Assembly (NCBI GenBank): GCA_012517435.1
Contig: JAAYUY010000123.1
Location: 1-38,181, forward strand
Source of the DNA: Sphingobacteriales bacterium
GTDB taxonomy: Bacteria; Bacteroidota; Bacteroidia; CAILMK01; JAAYUY01
Reading direction: 5' to 3'
Length of the DNA stretch: 38,181 nucleotides
Positions within the stretch are counted from its first letter, which is position 1. Every line of letters begins with the position of its first letter. Of this stretch, positions 6,801-22,236 are shown in pieces. Below the pieces are notes generated by a model. That model did no database searches. It worked only from the letters and a program-made list of their open reading frames with translations, and was not told the DNA's origin. Made by a program: the position numbers and the translations under genes.

Positions 6801-9800
6801 GTTCCGCTTCCGCCTGTCATGCTGTTGTAGAAAATGTTGTTCCTCAGATCGAGTCCTGTTACTGATGAAGTTGTGGTGATAAATGCTGCACATTGATCGG
6901 CAGTGGAAGTATTGGCAATTGCTCCCCGCATGATCACAGTATTAAAATATACCTTGACATTGGTTCCTCCGGCCAGTCTGATACCGTAAGGATTATAAGT
7001 AGTACTTGTGCCGTCTCCGTCTGTAATTAAGTCATGAATCAGGTTGTTCTGGATGGTCATATTATTATTGGAAGTAGTGGAAGAAATAACAATACCATAG
7101 GCTCCCCAACCACCAGTACTTAATGAATTCAGGTTGTACACATGATTGTTTTCTACTTTTGCTCCGCTGCAACCGGCACCAATGTCTATTCCTGCTATGT
7201 TGATACTGTTGGTGGTCAGAAAATTATAAATGGTATTCCCTGAAATGTAAGGAGAATTGCAATAACTGATGTAAATGCCCTTGTATAAGACACTTATAGA
7301 AGTAGAATCATTTCCGATAGTATTATTGGTTATCACCAGGCTATCGAATGGATTGGCAGAGTTTCCATATCCGTCAATTCCATAATATGCATTGTAAATG
7401 TGATTGTTATGAATGGTCAGGTTATGATGTCCGTAACCTGAAGATCCTAAATTACCTCCGAAATAAATGCCATAGGAAATGGCCGTTTGAAATCCATTTT
7501 CAATATTACAGTTTTTAATGGTAATATAGGTTGCTCCGTTTGTTGTGCTAAGTGAATTTAACCCAACTACTGTATTTGAACCACTGGTTTTGGTGCTTTT
7601 CAAAGTCAGGTTTCTTGAAGTTGAATTATTATTGCTCCCATCTATGGTAATGTAATCGGCTCCGTTGAATAAAAACACGGCTGTATCGGCTTTGATAACG
7701 ACATTTTTACCAGAGGCAGGTTTTAAAGTAACTCGTCTTGCATAGCTCAATCCGGCATATTCTTCAAATTTGATGGGAAATGTCTCGTTTGTATAAAGGG
7801 TATCGGTCAGCAGGAAGGTGACCGGACATGTTATTTCATTGATTTTTAAGGCATTTACTGCATTGGTTATGGTAGTGTAGGTGTTTCCTGTTCCGACATT
7901 GTATGTCCCGCACATTGAACCAAGAATAAGGTACTGGTCGGGTGATGCCGGTGGTACCGAAGCTGCCGGAGGATTGGCGGAAAATCCGCTTGCTCCTGCC
8001 GGTTTGCTGCCAACATTGGGAGTGGATGCATTGTCCTGAGCCACGATATAGTATTTTACAGTATCTCCGCTTGAAACAGTCGGACTGAGTGTGAAAGAAA
8101 AACTATCATTTCCGTTATAGGAAGCAGTTGCTGTTGTCCAGCTGCCACTGTTGACCCTGTAGTATAATCTGGGTAAACCTGAACCGGAGGTGGGTACGCC
8201 TGAAGCATCAGTAATTTTTGTTTTTAATACTCGTGAAGAAGTTGAAGAAGTATTGGACAGTGGACTATAGCTGATATTTGGAGCGGATAAATCTGCACCG
8301 GTAAAACTACCTTCATCAGCCCCTATGTCAGGAGTATTTGTATTTCTGCTGTTCCCATCAATATCGTCAGTGATGGCAACAGGAGAACTTACCGGAGCAG
8401 CTCCGCTTTCAATCTGAGTGGCTACATTGGTTTTAATGTGCAGATCATAAGGTTTAGAGCTGACATTAACGAATGGAGGATTTTCTGAAATAGAATTGCT
8501 TTCAGCCGGATTGAAACGATTTTTAAACTGGGCAAGCGTTGAGTCCTTGTTTGTTCCGTCATAGAAGATAACATTATTGCCTGACGGAGTTCCGGCATAC
8601 AATAAGTTATTGTTTGAGGATGAGGAATGAGTGGTTTGTGTGGTGGTACTTCTTTTATAAGCTGCATTTACTCCTGATGAACCTGTCATTGAAAGATTCA
8701 CAAGAATGTTGTTTCTTACATCTATATTAACAGAAGTGCTTGTGTACAGAGCATTTGAGCCAAAAGTAGAAGATGTTCCCATAGCTTTCAGATAAACGGT
8801 ATTGAAATATACTCCGGCATTAGTTCCACCGTTGAAATAAATCCCGTTTACTGAATTGGCACCAGAAGAGGAAGGAGCTTCCAGATCCGATACAAAATTG
8901 TTGTAAATCCATCCATTGGTCCCACTCGACATGTAAATACCATAAACAGTTGCATTAGCATTCATTGATGTCAGGTTATAGATTTTGTTTTTGTACAGAT
9001 AGATGGAATCACCGGATGCGGTAGATATACCGTAAATTGTTGTCCCTAATGTAGTTAACCCGTAAACTGTATTGGAAAAAATTTCTTTGTTTGTACTTGA
9101 AACAGGGTATGAATAAATGCCATAGATATTCCCTGTCGAGGTATTGCTGATATTGTAAACTGTATTACCATATATGTATTCATAGCCATTGGTGGCGGTA
9201 TTGTACTGGTCAATTCCGTAAGTAGTCCCGGTACCGGTTTTTGTTACGTTTCTGACAATATTGCTGTCAAGGTATAATTTTAGATAGGTCGCACTGGTGT
9301 AAATACAATACAAAGATCCGGAACCCGGTATATTTACAGAATCAATAAGATTTTTTTCGATAAATACTTTATCAGCAGAAGCACTGTTATAAATGCCATA
9401 AAAACTTCCTGTATAAGTTGAAATGGCTGTAATATTTTTAACCGTATTATTGTAAATCTTTACCGTATTGTTTGCAGCGGTCGATCCCATAGCATTATTT
9501 ATTCCATAAGTGCTTGAAGAAGAGGAGCTTATATAGAGTGAAACAGTGTTTTTGTAAATTTCTACATTTGAACTGGTACCTGTTGATAAAAATATGCCAT
9601 AAAGTGTTGTAGTCGTTCCAATTGTGCCATTGCTGATGTTATTGTTGGCTATCTTCAGATTGTTCTGATAAATGGCGTAAATTCCGTAAGCTGTACTGGA
9701 GCCTCCTCCGTAATTTAATAAAACATTGCCGCCATCAACTCCGATTTCATTGTTCTGGTCGTAAAGTGAATAGGGTGATGAAGCTGAATAGCCTTTTATT

Positions 9801-13948: not shown

Positions 13949-15388
13949 ATGAAAAAAATTTTTCTGGCCTTTCTGTTAAGTTTGTTTATCATAGTTCTGA
14001 AAGCCCAAAATACCGAGATCAAAATCAAATTCAGAACTTTTAAAAATCAGGATATTTATCTTGGATTTCATTATGGTAATAATAAATACATCAGAGATAC
14101 CACTCATGTTGACAACAAAGGAATAGCTGTTTTCACAGATAAAAACAAGGATCTGAAAGGTGGTATTTATTTGATAATTACGCCCGATATGAATTATTTC
14201 GAATTTATTCTTGCCGAGAAAAAGATTTTTCTTGAAACAGATACAGGAGATTTTATCAAACAAATGAAAGTCATTGAATCTGAAGAAAATAAGATTTTTT
14301 TCAACTACTTATTATACATTGAACAGAAACAGCAGGAAAAGCAGAATATTCTTAAAGAAAAAGCCATTTTTGCCGATAATAAACAAAAATCGGATGAATA
14401 TGATAAAAAAGTCAGTCAGGTGGATGAGGATGTTAAAAACTATATGAAAAGCCTGATTGAAAAATATCCTGATAAGTTTTTTCCTAAGGTGCTTAAAATG
14501 ATGAATGATCCTGTGCCGAGAGAAAAGCTTAATAATGAAGCAGATTCTACCTATTCAGAGTATTTATACAATTTTTACCAGCAGCATTACTTTGACAATG
14601 TTGATTTTTCGGATGAAAAAATTTTACGCACCCCTATTTATGAAAGCAAAATTGACCGTTTCATGGATCGTATGACCATGCATCATCCCGATTCAATTAA
14701 ACTCTCAGCCTCAAGGGTGATTGACCTTAGCAGGGCGAATGAAGAAGTTTTCAAATTCACTTTGGTAAAACTTTTTAATAAGTATGCCCAGTCTGAATAT
14801 ATGGGCATGGATGCCGTATATGTTTATCTGGCTGAACGATATTACCTGAGTGGACTGGCAAAATGGGCTGATTCTGCACAAATCAAGAAAATTTATGATC
14901 GCGTGGTTAAATTAAGCTCAAACCTGATAGGAATGAAAGCCCCTGAGCTGATCATGAAAGATACCAACGATCAATATCATTCCCTTCATGCACAACCTGG
15001 TATTTACACGATTTTAGTTTTTTGGGACCCAAGTTGCGGACATTGTCAGAAGGCTATTCCTTTTCTTGAAAAGTATTGGGAGCGTGTTTCACATGATTCA
15101 TTTTCAATATATTCCGTTAATATTGGAAATGATGGAAAAGAATGGAAACAATTCATTGCAGATAATAAACTCAGTTTTCTGTGCGTGTGGGATCCGTTAA
15201 ACTACAATAATTTCAGGGTTTTATACGATATTTTCAGTTCTCCGGTTGTTTACCTGCTGGATAAAAACAAGAAAATTGTTGCTAAAAGAATCGGTGTCGA
15301 TAAAATTGAAGAAATAGTCAATATTCTTGAAGGGCGAACTATCCCTGAAAAAAATGACCTTCAGGATAGCAAAAAGGAAAATGACTAA
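13949..15388 (+). CDS. TlpA-like thiol-disulfide protein with DUF4369-type N-terminus
   Basis: 479 aa exported protein. Signal peptide (1-20, ending LKAQ); N-terminal beta domain resembling DUF4369 (about 21-110: KIKFRTFKNQDIYLGFHYG); helical middle region with charged coiled coil (about 115-300); C-terminal thioredoxin fold (about 325-460) with the active site C363-G-H-C366 in FWDPSCGHCQKAIPF and a cis-proline region at SSPVVYLL. CGHC is the motif of oxidising/isomerising thioredoxins, so it may act on disulfides in envelope proteins. Such long TlpA-family proteins are common in Bacteroidota. Its stop codon overlaps the stop of the convergent XRE gene by 4 bp. Confidence 0.85.
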   Translation: MKKIFLAFLLSLFIIVLKAQNTEIKIKFRTFKNQDIYLGFHYGNNKYIRDTTHVDNKGIAVFTDKNKDLKGGIYLIITPDMNYFEFILAEKKIFLETDTGDFIKQMKVIESEENKIFFNYLLYIEQKQQEKQNILKEKAIFADNKQKSDEYDKKVSQVDEDVKNYMKSLIEKYPDKFFPKVLKMMNDPVPREKLNNEADSTYSEYLYNFYQQHYFDNVDFSDEKILRTPIYESKIDRFMDRMTMHHPDSIKLSASRVIDLSRANEEVFKFTLVKLFNKYAQSEYMGMDAVYVYLAERYYLSGLAKWADSAQIKKIYDRVVKLSSNLIGMKAPELIMKDTNDQYHSLHAQPGIYTILVFWDPSCGHCQKAIPFLEKYWERVSHDSFSIYSVNIGNDGKEWKQFIADNKLSFLCVWDPLNYNNFRVLYDIFSSPVVYLLDKNKKIVAKRIGVDKIEEIVNILEGRTIPEKNDLQDSKKEND

Positions 15389-15891
15389 TTTTCAGGGTAA
15401 AAGATTTCATATTCATTGTCGTCATAAAAAACAGTAATCATTTTTATTTTCCTTTTACGAGGATGTATGCTGGACATAATCATTTTTTCCGAAATAGCTG
15501 ATTTTTCCTCAGTATATTGTTTTTCAATGCTTTGAGACTCTTTTTCAACAGACTCAACTGTCTGAGATTTAATTTTTTTCACTTCGCTGATAGCAGGGCT
15601 ATGAATTTTTGAATCTGAAGCCGGTTGATTTTCAAATAAACCACCAAAACTGACGGATGCTCCGGAAATATCATCCCTGAAAGTATTACCCTGACCAAAT
15701 AAAAGCCATTCAGGATTGATATCAGGAAAGCAATTCAGTATGCTTTGAACCATTTCAAGGCTGGGATTGTTTCTGCCAGTCAAAATATGTGACAATCTCG
15801 ACCTGTTCACATTGATGGCATCAGCCAGACGGCTTGGAGTGAGGTTTTTCATTTCAATTATTTGCTTGATTCTGTCAGTTATAGTTGCCAT
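15385..15891 (-). CDS. XRE-family transcriptional regulator
   Basis: 168 aa. The N-terminus (about 5-60) is a Cro/C1-type helix-turn-helix: DRIKQIIEMKNLTPSRLADAI, then the recognition helix NRSRLSHILTGRNNPS, followed by PEWLLFGQG, which is usual for this Bacteroidota family. A polar, probably disordered linker (about 70-140) leads to a short conserved beta tail (KMITVFYDDNEYEIFYPE). No peptidase or ligand domain is seen, so it is not an SOS-type repressor. Its promoter (15942-15973) and start codon are overlaid by operator-like TTAC-N4-GTAA sites, which strongly suggests it represses itself. Other targets are unknown; the second operator cluster at 16324-16380 points to the region upstream of the M1 aminopeptidase gene. 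Confidence 0.88.
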   Translation of the reverse strand: MATITDRIKQIIEMKNLTPSRLADAINVNRSRLSHILTGRNNPSLEMVQSILNCFPDINPEWLLFGQGNTFRDDISGASVSFGGLFENQPASDSKIHSPAISEVKKIKSQTVESVEKESQSIEKQYTEEKSAISEKMIMSSIHPRKRKIKMITVFYDDNEYEIFYPEN

Positions 15892-15958
15892 ACAAATGTA
15901 AATTTAATAAGTTAACAATTGTAATCACTTTTGTAACGCTGCAAAATTACAAATGTGT
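15890..15958. promoter_or_regulatory. Operator-like cluster 1 (four TTAC-N4-GTAA sites)
   Basis: Four 12-bp dyads fit NNAC-N4-GTNN: ATACAAATGTAA (15890-15901, over the XRE start codon), TAACAATTGTAA (15913-15924), TCACTTTTGTAA (15925-15936, over the predicted transcription start) and TTACAAATGTGT (15947-15958, touching the -7 box). Sites 1 and 2 are 23 bp apart, and sites 3 and 4 are 22 bp apart, about two helical turns. The protein that binds is inferred to be the XRE regulator itself. Confidence 0.6.
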
Positions 15959-15973
15959 ATTCAAACATACAAA
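15942..15973 (-). promoter_or_regulatory. Complete promoter of the XRE regulator gene
   Basis: On the minus strand TTTG (15970-15973, within TTTTG) lies exactly 20 bases before TAATTTTG (15942-15949), a full match to the Bacteroidota consensus. The start of transcription would fall near 15935, inside operator-like site 3. Confidence 0.7.
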
Positions 15974-16151
15974 ATTAATTTTTCAGTAAATGAATGTTAG
16001 CTTTGAGTTATGTCCTTGATAGGAATTAAACTATCAGCTTTGAGTATTTCTTTTCCGGTTTAAATTAGGAAAAATTCGTGATATTGCCTAAATGAATAGA
16101 TAAAGCTATATCTGTTTCTTTAAACTGAAGAAAGTAGCATAACCTGTCTAG

Positions 16152-16196
16152 TAATCAGCATACTTCTCTAAATAAATTTATCTAAAATGCTGATTA
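16152..16196. repeat. 10-bp perfect inverted repeat
   Basis: TAATCAGCAT (16152-16161) and ATGCTGATTA (16187-16196) are exact reverse complements separated by 25 bases. ATACTTCTCT at the inner edge recurs soon after the right arm (about 16209). No T-run follows, so it does not look like a terminator. Confidence 0.5.
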
Positions 16197-16323
16197 ACAG
16201 ATTGATATACTTCTCTTTTAATACGGTTGCTTTATTGATTAACATTGTAATTTCCACATAAATTTACCTTGAAAAAAGATTACCTAAATACAAAAATTCG
16301 GGAATAAAAGATTTCAGATATAG

Positions 16324-16380
16324 TAACAAATGTTTATTTTTGAAAATCACAAATGTAAATTTTATTATTTACAAAAGTAA
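16324..16380. promoter_or_regulatory. Operator-like cluster 2 (three TTAC-N4-GTAA sites)
   Basis: TAACAAATGTTT (16324-16335), TCACAAATGTAA (16347-16358) and the perfect dyad TTACAAAAGTAA (16369-16380) begin 23 and 22 bp apart. They have the same sequence and spacing as cluster 1, about 430 bp away. The sites themselves contain TACATTTG and TACTTTTG on the minus strand, which are -7-like, so a minus-strand promoter here is possible. The nearest gene on the right is the M1 aminopeptidase. Confidence 0.55.
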
Positions 16381-16642
16381 CTCTTTCAAAAGTCTGCAAT
16401 TTCAATATGGAATAAAACTGAAAAAATTTTTACTTACATAAATGAATCATTCAACGATAACAGGAAAAAGCAAGAATAATATTTTTAATGCTGACCTGCT
16501 TAAGGCGTAATCCTGAGTATATCAAAAAGAAAATCAGCTCTTTAGACTATTATTTTTCTTTAATCGTAAACGCTGAGAATTTAAAATTGGAGTTTACTCC
16601 ATTACTTGGTAAGAAAATTTCAAAAAGAATGTCCTTAAGATT

Positions 16643-16650
16643 TACCTTTG
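16643..16650 (+). promoter_or_regulatory. Predicted -7 box for the M1 aminopeptidase gene
   Basis: TACCTTTG matches TANNTTTG exactly, with TTTC 21 bases upstream (16618-16621). The in-frame TTG at 16648 is the end of this box, so the true start is the ATG at 16672, directly preceded by GAAGGA. Confidence 0.5.
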
Positions 16651-16671
16651 TATGAAATTAATTTTGAAGGA

Positions 16672-18996
16672 ATGAAAAAAATTTTATTGGCTGTTGTCAT
16701 TATCCTCCTATCCTATTACAAAGCGCTTTCAGGTGACACAATTGGATATGATGTACTCAGATATAACCTTAAGATTGATTTGAACGACCTTGATTCAAAA
16801 ACTATTATAGCTGTAGCTGAAATTGTTCTGGTAGAAACTGACAAAATAAAAAACAACTTCGTATTTTGGCTGAAAGGACTAACAGTTGACTCCGTATCAG
16901 AAAACAATACATTACTCAGTTTTTCAATTGCAAATGAACTTTTAATCATTCAAAAACAAAGCTCAGGCATCGACACACACAGAATTAAGGTATATTATCA
17001 TGGACAACCCAAGAAAGATTCTTACTGGGGAGGATTTTATTTTAGTTCAAATGATGGTGGATATGCCTATAATATGGGGGTCGCTTTCAATGATGTTCCG
17101 CACAGCTATGGGCGTGTTTGGTTCCCCTGTTCTGAAAGCTTTACGGATAAAGCATTGTTTTCTTTTGAAATTATTACCTCCTCAGATAAAATGGCTGTTT
17201 GTAACGGATTATTAACAGCTGTAACCAATAATTCAGATGGTAACAAAACATGGCATTGGACGCTCAACGAGCCTATCCCCTGCTATCTGGCTTCGGTGGC
17301 GGTAGGGAACTATACCTTGGTTAAATCTGTTCACCAGGGCATTGAGAAAAAAATTGACATCATAAATGCCTGTCTGCCGGCTGATTCTGTTAAACTAAAA
17401 AATTCCTTCCAGCACCTTCCGGATTGTATTAATATTTTTGAAAGGAAATATCTGCCTTATCAGTTTGAGCGTGTTGGATTTGTCTTGGTTCCGTTTACTC
17501 AGGGTGCTATGGAACATGCGACCAATATTGCATTTCCCAAATATGCCGCTGATGGGAGTTTGTCGAATGAAACCCTTATGGCTCATGAGTTTTCGCATCA
17601 TTGGTGGGGCAATTTGCTGACCTGCCAGACACCTGAAGACATGTGGATTAATGAAGGATGGGCCAGGTGGTCAGAGTGGCTTTTTCTTGAGGAAATGTAC
17701 GGAAAAGAAGCCTATCAGCAGGAATACCTGAGCAATCATCGCGAAGTCTTACAATATGCCCACATTCGCGATAAAAAGATCTTGCCCGTAAGTCCGGTTC
17801 CTTCAGATGTAACTTATGGTGCCCACGTTTATGATAAGGGTGGCGATATTGTTCACACTTTGAGAAATTATCTTGGCGATTCCCTGTTTTTTTATTCAAT
17901 TCATAAGATATTGGAAAACAATAAGTTTGGAAATATTAATTCCTCTCAGTTTCGTGATTCGCTGACTAAATATTCCGGCAAAAACATGAATAGTTTTTTT
18001 AACAACTGGGTTTTTGAAAAAGGATTTCCATGTTTCAGAGCAGAGATCAGAAACTATTCCACTAATACTGAAGTAAAAGTATATCAGTTCTTAAGGTTTA
18101 CCGACAGGAAATATACTGAGGTTCCGCTGGAAATTACTTTTTACGGAGATAATATGGAAAAGGCCGTCAGAAATATTGTTTTAAATGAAATGGAAGAGAC
18201 ATTTGACTTTAAACTTCCTTTTGTTCCACAATTTGCGGTTATCAATGAAAACATGAAACTGGCAGAAGCCAAATCACCGGCTAAAATTATCGTTAAAACA
18301 ACAGGTAGCTTCGATATGTCAGATGCTTTACTGACTTTATATGTCAATGATATTCAGGATTCAGCGCTTGTATATGCGGAACATTTATGGGTCGCTCCTG
18401 TTTCATGGCCTACAGCAGTCAGTGGAATCAGGTTCTCAGATTACAGATATTGGAGCTTTAACGGAATTTTCCCTCAACATTTTGATGCTTATGCCCGCAT
18501 TAAATACAATGGCAAAGAAGGCAGCATGACAGGAGACAATTATCTCGACCATACTTTAAATATTATAAATGAAGATAGTCTTGTAGTGCTCTACAGAGAA
18601 AACATCAGTGCGCCATGGAATATTTATCCTGATTATAAAATAATTACCGGAAGTAAAACAGACAAAGTCGGAATGATTGAAATTTATCACCTCAAAAAAG
18701 GAGATTATTGCCTGGGAGTCAGAGATTATCAGCAAAGCATTAAAAAATCAGGACAAGCCAGACCAGTTGAGATTATTCCTTACTGGAAAAATGATGAAAT
18801 AACATTTTCAGTCAGTAATGAACTGCCTTTTGAAAGACTGATTTGCTACGACACATTCGGAAAGGTGATGAAAGATATTCAGATACAACAAAATGAACTA
18901 GTTAAGCTTAATACATCAGAGCTATCTTCCGGTTGTTATTTTTTTAAATTTATTGCCGGAAATGAGGTAATCACACTTAAATCCATCAAACCCTGA
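16672..18996 (+). CDS. Secreted M1-family zinc aminopeptidase with T9SS tail
   Basis: 774 aa. Signal peptide (about 1-21), N-terminal beta domain (about 22-230), catalytic domain (about 230-460) and a C-terminal T9SS type A-like sorting region (last ~65 aa: PFERLICYDTFGKVMKDI, SSGCYFFKFIAGNEVI). The zinc site is complete: H305-E306-F-S-H309 (HEFSHHWWGN) with E328 (NEGW) 18 residues on; the transition-state tyrosine is in HVYDKGG. The exopeptidase motif GxMEN reads GAMEH here, so the residue after the substrate-binding glutamate differs from the usual asparagine. It should cut N-terminal residues from peptides outside the cell or at the surface. It is followed 43 bp later by the ECF sigma gene with no clear promoter between. 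The start was moved from TTG 16648 to ATG 16672. Confidence 0.87.
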   Translation: MKKILLAVVIILLSYYKALSGDTIGYDVLRYNLKIDLNDLDSKTIIAVAEIVLVETDKIKNNFVFWLKGLTVDSVSENNTLLSFSIANELLIIQKQSSGIDTHRIKVYYHGQPKKDSYWGGFYFSSNDGGYAYNMGVAFNDVPHSYGRVWFPCSESFTDKALFSFEIITSSDKMAVCNGLLTAVTNNSDGNKTWHWTLNEPIPCYLASVAVGNYTLVKSVHQGIEKKIDIINACLPADSVKLKNSFQHLPDCINIFERKYLPYQFERVGFVLVPFTQGAMEHATNIAFPKYAADGSLSNETLMAHEFSHHWWGNLLTCQTPEDMWINEGWARWSEWLFLEEMYGKEAYQQEYLSNHREVLQYAHIRDKKILPVSPVPSDVTYGAHVYDKGGDIVHTLRNYLGDSLFFYSIHKILENNKFGNINSSQFRDSLTKYSGKNMNSFFNNWVFEKGFPCFRAEIRNYSTNTEVKVYQFLRFTDRKYTEVPLEITFYGDNMEKAVRNIVLNEMEETFDFKLPFVPQFAVINENMKLAEAKSPAKIIVKTTGSFDMSDALLTLYVNDIQDSALVYAEHLWVAPVSWPTAVSGIRFSDYRYWSFNGIFPQHFDAYARIKYNGKEGSMTGDNYLDHTLNIINEDSLVVLYRENISAPWNIYPDYKIITGSKTDKVGMIEIYHLKKGDYCLGVRDYQQSIKKSGQARPVEIIPYWKNDEITFSVSNELPFERLICYDTFGKVMKDIQIQQNELVKLNTSELSSGCYFFKFIAGNEVITLKSIKP

Positions 18997-19039
18997 AATT
19001 TTCCGAAAGAAAAAATAAAGTTGTTTGTCTGACAAAAGT

Positions 19040-19624
19040 ATGACCGAAAAAGAGTTAATAGAGGGTATTATCAAAGGTGACAAAATTGCTTTAAAATCTT
19101 TTGTTAGTCAATATAAAGACTTGGTTTTCAGGGTTTGTTATTCGGTTGTACAAAATAAAGATGATGCAGATGATCTGGCACAGGAAGTATTTATCAAAGC
19201 TTTTCATCATGCTACAGGTTTCCGGAATGATGCTAAAATTTCGACATGGCTCTACCGGATTGCACTCAATCTCTCTATCAATTTTATCAAAAGTAAAAAG
19301 AAAAAATCGTTTGTCGATTTTGTAGATCATATTATTTTTAAGTCCACAGAACAGGCAAAACCTGAAGTTGAGCAAATGGATTATGAGAATACACAGGAAA
19401 AGAAATACAAAATACTCTACAACAGCATTCAACAACTACCTGTCAATCAGCAGAAAGCATTTTTATTACATCATCAGGAAGGACTCTCCTATTACGAAAT
19501 AGCAGAAGTGATGCAGACCTCCCATGCTGCAGTCGAGTCATTGATACACAGGGCTAAGGTTGGACTGAAACAAAAACTTATTAAGGAATTAAAAAAACAA
19601 AATCTTTTCGAAAGTTATCAGTAA
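19040..19624 (+). CDS. ECF-family RNA polymerase sigma factor
   Basis: 194 aa. Region 2 (about 19-86) has the -10 and core-binding signature DDADDLAQEVFIKAFHH and STWLYRIALNLSINF; a basic KSKKKK follows. Region 4 (about 126-178) has LPVNQQKAFLLHHQEGLSYYEIAEVMQTS followed by VESLIHRAKVGLKQKL, the helix-turn-helix that reads the -35 element. A variable acidic linker joins the two, as in other ECF factors. It is followed at 21 bp by a zinc anti-sigma gene, the standard arrangement for control by sequestration. An upstream TTG at 19025 (adding MSDKS) is possible. A short dyad TTGTCTGACAA just ahead of the ATG may be regulatory. The genes it turns on are not known. Confidence 0.9.
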   Translation: MTEKELIEGIIKGDKIALKSFVSQYKDLVFRVCYSVVQNKDDADDLAQEVFIKAFHHATGFRNDAKISTWLYRIALNLSINFIKSKKKKSFVDFVDHIIFKSTEQAKPEVEQMDYENTQEKKYKILYNSIQQLPVNQQKAFLLHHQEGLSYYEIAEVMQTSHAAVESLIHRAKVGLKQKLIKELKKQNLFESYQ

Positions 19625-19645
19625 CAGATTTGTCAAATTAAAGTT

Positions 19646-20071
19646 ATGAATTGCAGAGAATTTCAGAACATATTATTCAAAGGACTTGATAGTCAGACAG
19701 ATAAAGCATTCTTTCTCCATAAGGAAAAGTGTGAGGGCTGCCGGATTTTGTACGAATTACATCACGAAAATTATACTGATGAAAGTTTACGACAGATTAA
19801 AGCCGATGATTTCTTTTATTCCCGACTTGAAAACAAAATCTCTAAAGGAACTATCAAAACATTTACGTATTCCAGATGGCTTGTGGCTGCTTCAATAATA
19901 CTAATTCTTGCTTTCTCGGGAATTTTAGGTTACATGATTGGAAATCCTTCATCAATTCTTTATTCCACCAAACAAAATAATTCAGTTAAAAGTGTGGATA
20001 ATGAATACTTTAGTCTGGTGTCTCAAAATGATATTTCAGAAAGCTATTTAAAACTTATAAGCAATGAATAG
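19646..20071 (+). CDS. Membrane anti-sigma factor with zinc-binding (ZAS-like) motif
   Basis: 141 aa single-pass inner-membrane protein. The cytoplasmic N-terminus carries H25-x3-C29-x2-C32 (HKEKCEGC), the zinc motif of anti-sigma domains that clamp ECF sigma factors; C3 may supply the fourth ligand. One membrane helix spans about 77-97, and a ~44-residue tail faces the periplasm. It lies directly after the ECF sigma gene and its last 8 bp overlap the start of the Spy/CpxP-like gene, implying coupled translation. The expected role is to hold the sigma factor at the membrane until a periplasmic signal releases it. Confidence 0.82.
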   Translation: MNCREFQNILFKGLDSQTDKAFFLHKEKCEGCRILYELHHENYTDESLRQIKADDFFYSRLENKISKGTIKTFTYSRWLVAASIILILAFSGILGYMIGNPSSILYSTKQNNSVKSVDNEYFSLVSQNDISESYLKLISNE

Positions 20072-20600
20072 AAAAATTAATTGGACAGTATTGCTCAGTA
20101 TTGGAGTGATTATCTTAATGATTATCAATATTATAGCTTTAATCACCATTATCAGCCTGAACAAAAAGAAACAGGTGGTTAGTAGAGAGGAACGCCCACA
20201 TTTTCACGAATTCATGAACAATGAACTCAACCTGACTGATCAACAAAAAGACACTTTTTTTAAGCTCAGGCATGAGTTTATGATGGATGGGAAGAAATAC
20301 CTTGATCTGATTCAAAACTATCGGGATTCTGTCTTTAATGAACTGATGAATGCGCATCCGGATACCATTTTGATTAATCACTATAATGATCAGATTGAAT
20401 ACTTTCACTCGAAGATGATACGATTAGCTTATCAGCATTTCCTGACCATGAAAGAAATCCTTGACAGCAATCAGCAGCGTAAGTATTTCATGTTTTTAAA
20501 CGACAAAATGAGAGTAAAATTCAGGGGAATGAAATACAAAAAAGGTTGCTGTGAAAATGAGGCAGGGCCTCCTCCACCTTTTCCAAATATGGACTTTTAA
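20064..20600 (+). CDS. Membrane-anchored Spy/CpxP-like periplasmic sensor
   Basis: 178 aa: one N-terminal membrane helix (about 8-31), then a helical periplasmic domain with the paired LTxxQ-type motifs of the CpxP/Spy/CnrX superfamily: LTDQQ (57-61) and LDSNQQ (133-138). The stretch RPHFHEF (44-50) and a terminal CC followed by PPPPF could bind metal, though this is not certain. In cnrYXH-type systems a CnrX-like sensor, an anti-sigma and an ECF sigma factor form one operon responding to metal; the same three parts are present here. The signal could be metal or misfolded envelope protein. The gene ends 4 bp from the convergent lnt gene. Confidence 0.78.
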   Translation: MNRKINWTVLLSIGVIILMIINIIALITIISLNKKKQVVSREERPHFHEFMNNELNLTDQQKDTFFKLRHEFMMDGKKYLDLIQNYRDSVFNELMNAHPDTILINHYNDQIEYFHSKMIRLAYQHFLTMKEILDSNQQRKYFMFLNDKMRVKFRGMKYKKGCCENEAGPPPPFPNMDF

Positions 20601-20604
20601 TTGT

Positions 20605-22236
20605 TCAGAGTGGCTTCTTTTTTATTAATCCTTTGGAAATTAATAATATCAGCAACAAAACAGAAGTAAAGGCAGCTATTCTGCCAAGGTAGTCACCCGT
20701 TCGGGTATAAAAAGTAAGCTTATCATTTACAAGCACAGGAACTTTAATTGCTGCTTCTTCCCAGAATTTCGTCTGTTCAATGATATTTCCTTCCGGATCA
20801 ATATAACCTGAAATGCCTGTATTTGCTGATCGGACGATGTATTTTCCGGTCTCGATGGCTCTCAATCTGGCATACTGAAAATGCTGCCGGTGTCCTGCTG
20901 TGTTTCCCCACCAGCCATCATTGGTCATGATGGTAATCAGGTTAGCCTTTTTTTTGACAAATTTACTTACATAATTACCAAAAACACTTTCATAACAAAT
21001 GATAGGGGCAGCTGTAATTTTTTCATTCACCTGAAAGATAGAGGGTTCAGCCTGTTTACCCAGGCTCCCTGAAGTTCCTCCAAGGTCGATGGTCAGCCTG
21101 GATAAAAATTTGAAAACCTTTGGATATGGCATTTTTTCGACACCCGGAACAAGAATAGATTTATGATAAAATTCAAATCTTCCCCTGAAATCCATGAATA
21201 CTGCAGCATTGTAAGCATCATAGTAACTGCTGTCATATTCATAAAATCTGGCTGTTTCGCTCAGCTTCTCTCCTTTTTTGAAAAATCTATAGGAATCAAT
21301 ACCTGAAATCAACTTTGCATTTGGGTATTTTGCCAGAAACTCAAGAATCACCTGCGTGTAATTGCTTTCAAGAAATCTTTCTTCATCAAATGGAAGCGAA
21401 AGAGCTGTTTCAGGCCACACAAACAGTAAGGTATTACTGTCTGCCTGTGATTCGCTTAGCCGTATAAGCGTCTGAAGTTGTTCAGTAAAAGTTCCGCTGG
21501 CAAATTTTTCATGATACGGGTCAATATTTGGCTGAACAATAACAATATTTCCTTTAATCTCTTCTGATTTAATATTTTTAATTGAAAATGAAATAATTAC
21601 AGGAAAGATAATAAAAATTATCAGTAAAATAATATAGGAAATAATGTTGAAAGACATGCTAAATTTTAAAGTCTGTAATTTTGGAGAAATGATGAGTAAA
21701 ATGTTAAAAACCAAAATGTTAATTATCCAAATCCATACAGCACCACCAAAGATTCCGGTAAATTCATACCATTGAACGAATTGGGGAACGGTGGCAAAAA
21801 CATTTCCGATATTCAGCCATGGCCATGCCAGATCCCAGTTCAGAAACAGATATTCAAGACCAAGCCAGAAAACAGCAATAAAATAAACCGGCATCCTCCT
21901 TTTCATGACAACGGAAAGTTTATGATACAGCAGAAAAGGAAGAAACATCATCAGGCTATTGAGAATAACAGTGGCAATAGCTCCAGCGAGGGTGGCTTTA
22001 TGAATCCAGAACGATGTCAAAAAGTTCCATATTAAAAACGCAGGAAAAATAAAGAGAAACAATTTAATAGACTTATTTTCAGCTGTGTAATGCCAAATAA
22101 TATGATCGATAATTAAAAGAGGGACAAAAGCAATAAAAATGATAAAAGGAAAGCCTTTGTCGGGCCATGATGCCCATAAAAGCAGGCCACTAAGAATTCC
22201 TGACAGGGCTAAATGAAGTTTATTTATCTTTTCCAT
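20605..22236 (-). CDS. lnt: Apolipoprotein N-acyltransferase
   Basis: 543 aa inner-membrane enzyme that adds the third acyl chain to the N-terminal cysteine of lipoproteins, using a phospholipid donor. About six to seven hydrophobic helices (1-215) precede a periplasmic nitrilase-fold domain (about 225-500), then a final membrane helix (about 512-532). The nitrilase triad is intact: E276 (VWPETALS), K359 (YHKSILVPG) and C414 (IICYESVFG), matching E267, K335 and C387 of the E. coli enzyme. The ATG at 22236 overlaps the 3' end of rsmI by 17 bp, so translation is probably coupled. A TTG at 22242 would add two residues. The lipoproteins in this window (Omp28 and the 10497 gene) are potential substrates. 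Confidence 0.94.
   Translation of the reverse strand: MEKINKLHLALSGILSGLLLWASWPDKGFPFIIFIAFVPLLIIDHIIWHYTAENKSIKLFLFIFPAFLIWNFLTSFWIHKATLAGAIATVILNSLMMFLPFLLYHKLSVVMKRRMPVYFIAVFWLGLEYLFLNWDLAWPWLNIGNVFATVPQFVQWYEFTGIFGGAVWIWIINILVFNILLIISPKLQTLKFSMSFNIISYIILLIIFIIFPVIISFSIKNIKSEEIKGNIVIVQPNIDPYHEKFASGTFTEQLQTLIRLSESQADSNTLLFVWPETALSLPFDEERFLESNYTQVILEFLAKYPNAKLISGIDSYRFFKKGEKLSETARFYEYDSSYYDAYNAAVFMDFRGRFEFYHKSILVPGVEKMPYPKVFKFLSRLTIDLGGTSGSLGKQAEPSIFQVNEKITAAPIICYESVFGNYVSKFVKKKANLITIMTNDGWWGNTAGHRQHFQYARLRAIETGKYIVRSANTGISGYIDPEGNIIEQTKFWEEAAIKVPVLVNDKLTFYTRTGDYLGRIAAFTSVLLLILLISKGLIKKKPL

Follow-up and report, generated by a model that had tools for sequence, protein, structure and literature searches.

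A candidate CnrYX-CnrH-like envelope-stress switch and its conserved internal promoter motif in a Sphingobacteriales bacterium

We analysed a stretch of 38,181 nucleotides (hereafter the window), which is the whole of contig JAAYUY010000123.1 in a Sphingobacteriales genome of 3.19 Mb and 252 contigs (GCA_012517435.1); gene content and relatives likewise point to Bacteroidota. Three adjacent genes in it encode an extracytoplasmic function (ECF) sigma factor, a membrane anti-sigma and a CnrX/Spy-type sensor, and we propose, with a probability that we put at roughly 70%, that together they are an envelope-stress switch that works like CnrYX-CnrH and limits itself. The genes, their domains, a fold prediction, the conserved cassette and a conserved promoter motif of fixed spacing are the computed basis of this proposal. 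Four further points are inferred from it: recognition of the motif by the sigma factor, membrane pairing of sensor and anti-sigma, the kind of signal, and the shut-off.

In the mechanism that we envisage, the cytoplasmic part of the anti-sigma would hold the sigma factor at the inner membrane, and the sensor, anchored beside the anti-sigma, would keep the complex inactive. When the sensor's helical cradle meets its signal (an unfolded envelope protein or a metal), the sigma factor would be released; it would then transcribe the anti-sigma and sensor pair from an internal promoter and, more weakly, its own gene from a second site. Activation would in this way produce more inhibitor, and the response would shut itself off. 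The elements concerned are:

19002–19032, + strand: candidate sigmaE-like promoter CGAAAG-N17-GTCTGA ahead of the sigma gene, within the 43-bp gap that follows the upstream peptidase gene
19040–19624, + strand: ECF sigma factor with an ATG start (PF04542, PF08281)
19607–19637, + strand: candidate internal sigmaE-like promoter CGAAAG-N17-GTCAAA, 8 nt ahead of the anti-sigma ATG
19646–20071, + strand: single-pass membrane anti-sigma (H-x3-C-x2-C, FFxxRLxxKI, small-xxxGxxxG helix)
20064–20600, + strand: CnrX/Spy-type sensor anchored in the membrane (LTDQQ; N22 of the membrane helix is conserved)

The sigma and anti-sigma genes are 21 nt apart, and the reading frames of anti-sigma and sensor overlap by 8 nt.

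Relatives of the cassette were collected in two ways: by similarity to the sigma factor (the best 80 of 588 matches confirmed in named genomes) and with a profile of the sensor at E 1e-5 (82 places examined; weaker matches and one place at a contig end were left out). Among those best 80 sigma loci, 68 have both partner genes, 7 the sensor only and 5 neither; sigma, anti-sigma and sensor are all present at 79 of the 82 sensor places. Where all three genes occur, they stand in the order sigma, anti-sigma, sensor at 72 of 76 loci in the first set (here the named set plus the window and eight further loci) and at 79 of 79 in the second; the exceptions are three divergent loci and one, L014, with the cnr order of anti-sigma, sensor, sigma. 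One named locus, L109, is a second copy of L017 and is left out of most counts other than that of the 80, and L161, which is the same place as L054, is kept in the 79 of 82, in the sigma-upstream and sensor-upstream counts and in the division of the family by zinc motif, and left out of the counts of internal sites, overall and by type of anti-sigma, and of the regulon. The sensor profile matches 112 of 395 genomes of the class at E 1e-5, and not every match is a cassette sensor. Judged by this synteny, the three genes form a real unit, and the initial annotation's description of a cnr-like unit with the sensor last stands.

Some loci depart from the common layout. At L178 (G206:C9) the sensor frame is broken by a stop and no sigma or anti-sigma gene was found, so that this is possibly a decaying cassette. 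In the divergent loci L057, L076 and L080 the anti-sigma and sensor genes lie on the strand opposite to sigma, a second LTXXQ gene stands behind sigma, and copies of the promoter motif described next lie ahead of more than one transcript.

Another key result is the promoter motif itself. Typical sigmaE-like promoter elements are GGAACTT and GTCAAA/TCTGA. Upstream of 126 sigma genes, in stretches of at most 230 nt, two words are over-represented by a rough shuffle expectation, CGCAAGTT (15 occurrences versus 0.4 expected) and CGTCTAA (11 versus 0.7). The motif learnt from these stretches, CGCAAG-N17-GTCTAA, is sigmaE-like, and the GTC of its −10 part is conserved. Scored as a two-block matrix, it reaches at least 12 in 55 of the 126 sigma upstream regions, which are also the regions that trained the matrix, versus 1.6% in dinucleotide shuffles. 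The 90 nt upstream of the anti-sigma genes were not training data, and here 104 of 155 loci, the window included, score at least 12; at the same threshold the opposite strand yields 2 of 155, and other open reading frames (ORFs) of the same loci 46 of 764, some of them likely targets. The spacing of this internal site is identical in 101 of the 104 loci. Upstream of the sensor gene, none of 165 sequences reaches a score of 8. Divided by type of anti-sigma, among loci with sigma before anti-sigma, the internal site is found in 95 of 133 loci without the zinc motif and 11 of 16 with it, and the sigma-upstream site in 38 of 133 and 8 of 16, respectively. In a wider stretch ahead of the anti-sigma gene, a score of at least 15 is reached in 8 of 8 loci of Chlorobiaceae and 2 of 3 of Ignavibacteria. 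Among culturable relatives, the anti-sigma site scores 22.4 in Niastella vici (L062) and 21.3 in Aureibaculum flavum (L120); Gaoshiqia sediminis (L058), of the zinc type, has a sigma site of 22.8 and an anti-sigma site of 12.1.

The best site of the window, TTCGAAAGTT-N12-TTTGTCAAA, spans the end of the sigma gene at 19607–19637 and scores 17.9 (p<1/5000 within 90 nt; this score is reached somewhere in 3 of 60 shuffled whole windows). This site is absent from the initial annotation and is stronger than the copy in the gap between the peptidase and sigma genes (18997–19042), where TCCGAAAGAA-N12-TTTGTCTGA scores 10.8 with a matrix trained without the window's family. The annotation had seen no clear promoter in that gap; the copy at 19002–19032, although weak, is of the family-specific ECF type (p 0.0026 within the gap and 0.0125 over 230 bp) and corrects that view. 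A standard sigma-70 scan of 15800–20900 was of no help (23 sites versus 19.9 expected). The window and two further members of its family that carry the cassette, G001 and G002, have sites with the same spacing, and that of G001 is strong (18.9, p<1/5000). On these sequence comparisons, the internal site is taken as a conserved ECF promoter that precedes the anti-sigma gene, and the cassette's own sigma factor would be the protein that reads it.

The motif also marks other genes. With a score of at least 17 and an ORF start within 200 nt, 206 sites were found, of which 98 precede anti-sigma genes, 41 sigma genes, 13 LTXXQ genes and 54 other genes. After the sigma and anti-sigma genes, those similar to YHYH proteins make up the largest cluster of such neighbours, with 31 members (four tested, all PF14240), followed by 8 for outer-membrane barrels (one tested, PF14905), 5 for EF-hand proteins (one tested), 3 CotH-like (one tested) and 2 multicopper-oxidase-like (one tested, PF07732), with one for a di-haem peroxidase. 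Eight motif-bearing LTXXQ genes form, by eye, a secreted Spy-like cluster, and five of these eight are in loci of the zinc type. Taken from the longest ORF start, second LTXXQ genes have a motif score of at least 12 in 4 of 29 cases; with starts placed after the site, 8 of them score at least 17. YHYH genes occur in 78 of 112 genomes with the sensor versus 76 of 283 without it, counts that ignore relatedness; 45 of 50 sensor places lie near a YHYH gene, and these places, being hand-picked, were not used as a rate. Through the motif-bearing YHYH, multicopper-oxidase and Spy-like genes, the wider family may be connected with copper or envelope stress. There is no YHYH match in four genomes of the window's family, so that the copper reading belongs to the wider family and not to the window.

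At L013:7545–10645, the sensor gene is followed by MbnP and di-haem peroxidase genes and then, behind a strong ECF motif (9233–9264), by a YHYH gene, a likely copper-handling operon; and on pMOL28 (L226) a YHYH-domain gene is annotated at 691–813, close to cnrYXH of Cupriavidus metallidurans. Near the Spy-like gene of G002 (L237), no site scores 10 or more.

As to the proteins, the sigma factor is an ordinary two-domain ECF factor whose relatives in the PDB are SigH, SigW, RpoE and CnrH. The anti-sigma carries HKEKCEGC at residue 25, which has the H-x3-C-x2-C pattern of the class I zinc anti-sigma (ASDI) motif; its FFxxRLxxKI stretch is conserved in anti-sigmas both with and without the zinc motif, and its membrane helix was assigned by eye and hydropathy. 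Neither Pfam nor NCBIfam gives it a family match with a meaningful E-value, Pfam zf-HC2 included (which matches one of 8 relatives), and a profile of the anti-sigmas retrieved nothing convincing among PDB sequences (best E 0.17). A model of sigma and anti-sigma fused (predicted local distance difference test score, pLDDT, 77.6; predicted template modelling score 0.64) was not used as evidence for an interface.

The sensor by itself matches PF07813 at E 0.027, under the gathering cut-off. In an alignment of 8 members, PF13801 is matched in 7 and PF07813 in 7 at E up to 0.1, the window sensor by PF07813 only, and the profile of these 8 sensors, window included, retrieves Spy (4.9e-8), NccX (6.8e-6), ZraP (1.5e-5) and CnrX (6.2e-4) from the PDB. 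The predicted structure (mean pLDDT 87.3) has helices at residues 7–38, 47–54, 59–94, 101–132 and 135–154; the first is the predicted anchor, LTDQQ lies within the hairpin, and residues 40–160 are taken as the periplasmic part. Foldseek places CnrX as the top match of this model (E 0.024, probability 1.00), and VIA-align has CnrX among its top rows (Z 11.0 over 103 residues). Unrelated helical bundles come close to this Z, and the assignment of the fold therefore leans on the sequence profile too.

The likeness to CnrX raises the question of metal. A strict cnr-like metal-resistance regulator, in which the sensor binds Ni, Co, Cu or Zn and the switch drives metal handling, would fit the top fold match, and its ligands can be compared: those of CnrX, which we take to be H42, H46, E63, H119 and M123, correspond to H48, N52, R69, H125 and M129 of the window sensor. 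Three of the five (His, His, Met) are thus kept, but equivalents of H46 and E63 are missing, and metal sensing by this protein stays a candidate property because two of five positions differ. The counterparts in G002 and G001 keep 1 and 2 of the five; of 165 sensor rows, 128 have H125, 5 have His at 48 and 8 have Met at 129. The wider family has a set of its own, His72, His125 and Cys133 (73, 68 and 68 of 79 rows without the zinc motif in the second set), of which the window sensor lacks His72 and Cys133. The PHFH and CC/PPPP segments that the initial annotation offered as possible metal binders do exist, and PHFH places its second His opposite CnrX H42; however, these segments are not conserved among relatives and a full site is absent. 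The YHYH, multicopper-oxidase and di-haem peroxidase genes that bear the motif elsewhere would suit metal handling, but no efflux, MbnP, YHYH or oxidase gene adjoins the window cassette, whose immediate neighbours are the peptidase gene and lnt, the window's family lacks YHYH matches as noted, and in loci of the zinc type the motif precedes Spy-like genes. We therefore consider a strict metal regulator unlikely for the window.

These differences follow a division in the family. Most anti-sigmas, 137 of 156, are short forms without the zinc motif; 123 of these 137 have an Asn in the membrane helix, and 118 are accompanied by His72 in the sensor. In the 19 with the zinc motif, the membrane Asn is never present (Gly, Ser, Ala, Thr or Ile stands instead), and His72 occurs once. 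The second set contains a single zinc row, and 71 of its 79 non-zinc rows have the membrane Asn. A tree of the sigma factors gathers the 19 zinc rows in a single supported branch of 39 rows, and the zinc label changes at least 5 times; there are two well-supported independent pairs, with which a sign test cannot reach significance. Coupled evolution of zinc motif, membrane residue and His72 was considered and set aside: since the zinc rows share one branch, we read the split as shared ancestry, which falls short of proving coupling. His72 is also missing from rows without the zinc motif that lie close to the zinc rows (L059, L088, L098 and L110), and the first three of these have no membrane Asn either.

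It could also be that the third protein is no sensor at all: it would then be an effector chaperone like Spy, and the anti-sigma alone would sense stress. Sequence profile and fold do relate this protein to Spy, and in a Phocaeicola vulgatus system the third gene is treated as a chaperone by its authors (PMC13114119). We find this rather improbable for two reasons. The first LTXXQ protein appears to keep an uncleaved anchor, and 78 of 83 have N22, as many as have L18, whereas the 29 second LTXXQ copies mostly have, by eye, signal-peptide-like N-termini without that Asn; and the usual anti-sigma among the relatives, at about 100 residues, has little periplasmic part for sensing. A separate Spy-like chaperone candidate is found in the window's own genome, namely a second LTXXQ/Metal_resist gene truncated at a contig start (G000:C153:1–291, L165). 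Its tail, GCCGGYHGG, resembles the GCC...PFP tail of the window sensor; its promoter is not visible because the contig end cuts the gene.

Several observations weigh against a self-limiting, CnrYX-CnrH-like switch. The sigma-upstream site of the window is off consensus, the internal site of G002 is weak (5.5, p 0.033), about a third of the loci have no internal site at the threshold, and the motif counts ignore relatedness among loci. A search for a regulon in the window's own genome revealed no other convincing site (1 versus 6, and 5 versus 16, in backward controls), and four genomes of the family gave 4 pattern matches versus 4 in backward controls. Sensor and anti-sigma of the window both score under curated family cut-offs; no Foldseek match of the sensor model reaches E 0.001, and the VIA-align Z of 11 is below the 13 advised for helical bundles, unrelated ones reaching 10.

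We turn to the gene upstream of the cassette. The gene order is a helix-turn-helix (HTH) gene (− strand), the peptidase, sigma, anti-sigma and sensor genes (all +) and lnt (−); the peptidase and the three cassette genes all exist as first annotated, by ORFs and domain matches, and the peptidase gene does end 43 bp before the sigma start. Two features belong to the peptidase:

16643–16650, + strand: Bacteroidota housekeeping −7-like element TACCTTTG ahead of the peptidase gene
16672–18996, + strand: secreted M1 aminopeptidase-like protein with a type IX secretion system (T9SS) C-terminal sorting domain (PF01433, PF17900, PF18962)

The M1 assignment is clear (PF01433, E 1.2e-31; HEFSH...NEGW in the translation), and the T9SS sorting domain PF18962, at 27.9 bits, is barely over its cut-off of 27. 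Matches to this peptidase are common, in 61 of 100 relatives at E 1e-60, but in the neighbourhoods of its 30 best-matching loci (1.5-kb flanks) a sigma gene lies downstream in two only, the window and G002 (43 and 58 bp, same strand in both). G003, a congener of G002, has the HTH gene, peptidase and lnt without the cassette (L026), so that peptidase and cassette are separable; in G001 the cassette is on contig C410, preceded by a gene that is not M1, and the peptidase is on C132 with other neighbours. In the set of 80 named sigma loci (the best of 588; 72 reach 1 kb or more upstream of sigma), an M1 gene stands directly upstream only in L117, where a distant M1 (phmmer E 8e-30) lies 71 nt from sigma with a clear ECF motif between; in L104 an M1 fragment is nearly 5 kb away. 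With two of 30 loci and the distant case of L117, the order of four genes belongs to one small lineage.

No ECF motif was found upstream of the peptidase gene (best score 4.2). What stands there is an element of the type TAnnTTTG, which we take to be the Bacteroidota housekeeping −7 element, and TATCTTTG occurs in the same region of G002 and G003; TAnnTTTG in the window as a whole (62 versus 49.5 expected) is weak evidence alone. An HTH regulator is divergent from the peptidase, with an intergenic stretch of about 680–780 bp, both in the window (15385–15891) and in G003 (L026:260–784), and for local control of the peptidase it is a better candidate than sigma. A terminator scan of the 43-bp gap found none, so read-through from the peptidase gene into sigma is possible. 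That peptidase and switch form a co-transcribed four-gene stress operon, the protease being output or input of the switch, is nonetheless very improbable in view of the synteny and the absent ECF motif, on which we rejected the peptidase as a member of the unit. The adjacency is mostly a local accident and the neighbour probably stands outside the switch, as far as gene order and motif can tell. Of the initial interpretation, the cnr-like three-gene unit is thus retained and the functional four-gene unit given up; a promoter of sigma's own and the lack of conserved linkage to the peptidase had been named in advance as what would count against that operon, and both are largely what was found.

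How does the cassette compare with described systems? CnrYXH of C. metallidurans pMOL28 and NccYXH likewise combine an adjacent ECF sigma, a single-pass anti-sigma and a membrane sensor of the CnrX type, and such an anchored sensor beside sigma and anti-sigma is what the window has. The membrane helix of CnrY (by eye) has an Asn, as in most relatives here. CnrX has five metal ligands, and three of these positions are matched in the window; the cnr genes stand in the order Y-X-H whereas sigma stands first here, cnr is linked to efflux genes whereas the immediate neighbours here are the peptidase gene and lnt, and the stretches upstream of cnrY and cnrC do not match our motif (scores 3.2 and −1.7). 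The RpoE-RseA system of E. coli and class I anti-sigma systems of the zinc type share the sigmaE-like promoter elements, and the zinc type also the H-x3-C-x2-C pattern; to our knowledge, the rpoE operon has no CnrX/Spy sensor gene, unlike the window cassette. According to PMC9045368, a CnrH-dependent promoter, cnrYp, lies directly ahead of the anti-sigma gene, and cnrYXH also has housekeeping baseline expression; in the present cassette, too, the inhibitor gene seems to have a sigma-dependent promoter of its own, although sigma stands in front. CnrY is a class II anti-sigma without the zinc motif according to PMC7406223, and here the window differs with its HKEKCEGC; it shares FFxxRLxxKI with the short forms. 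The same paper is the source of the idea that such a motif can have a structural role in a membrane anti-sigma. The nearest described case in Bacteroidota that we found is cirYZ-spy of P. vulgatus, in which sigma comes first, then the anti-sigma, then a Spy-like gene, and deletion of cirZ (the anti-sigma gene) raised cirY and the co-transcribed spy (PMC13114119). The likeness lies in the gene order; the authors call the third gene a chaperone, and the text consulted mentions neither a zinc motif nor an internal promoter.

We regard the cassette as a genuine CnrYX-like switch that is a variant of the known cnr-type kind, its conserved internal promoter and predicted regulon being the most interesting part. 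As a feedback design, a promoter placed inside the unit just ahead of the inhibitor is simple and testable, and the shared motif offers a direct way to predict regulons and to probe the roles of YHYH-domain proteins. PMC7406223 reports that a class I anti-sigma gene lies close to just 6% of the ECF sigmas of Bacteroidetes, and suggests broken synteny or the dominance of other classes; the cassette, with its mostly short, non-zinc anti-sigmas, may be one of those other classes, and the group may already carry a number in the ECF re-classification. More tentatively, and short of an even chance in our estimate, we suggest a class of ECF circuit across Bacteroidota, Chlorobiaceae and Ignavibacteria, in which an internal sigmaE-like promoter would let sigma transcribe its own inhibitor and sensor and the regulon would be made up of extracytoplasmic proteins that handle copper or the envelope (YHYH, multicopper oxidase, di-haem peroxidase, EF-hand, Spy). 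In the branch of the window, the sensor's His72 (often Cys133 as well) and the membrane Asn of the anti-sigma would have given way to a zinc-motif anti-sigma whose membrane helix is rich in glycine, and sensing may have shifted from metal to protein damage.

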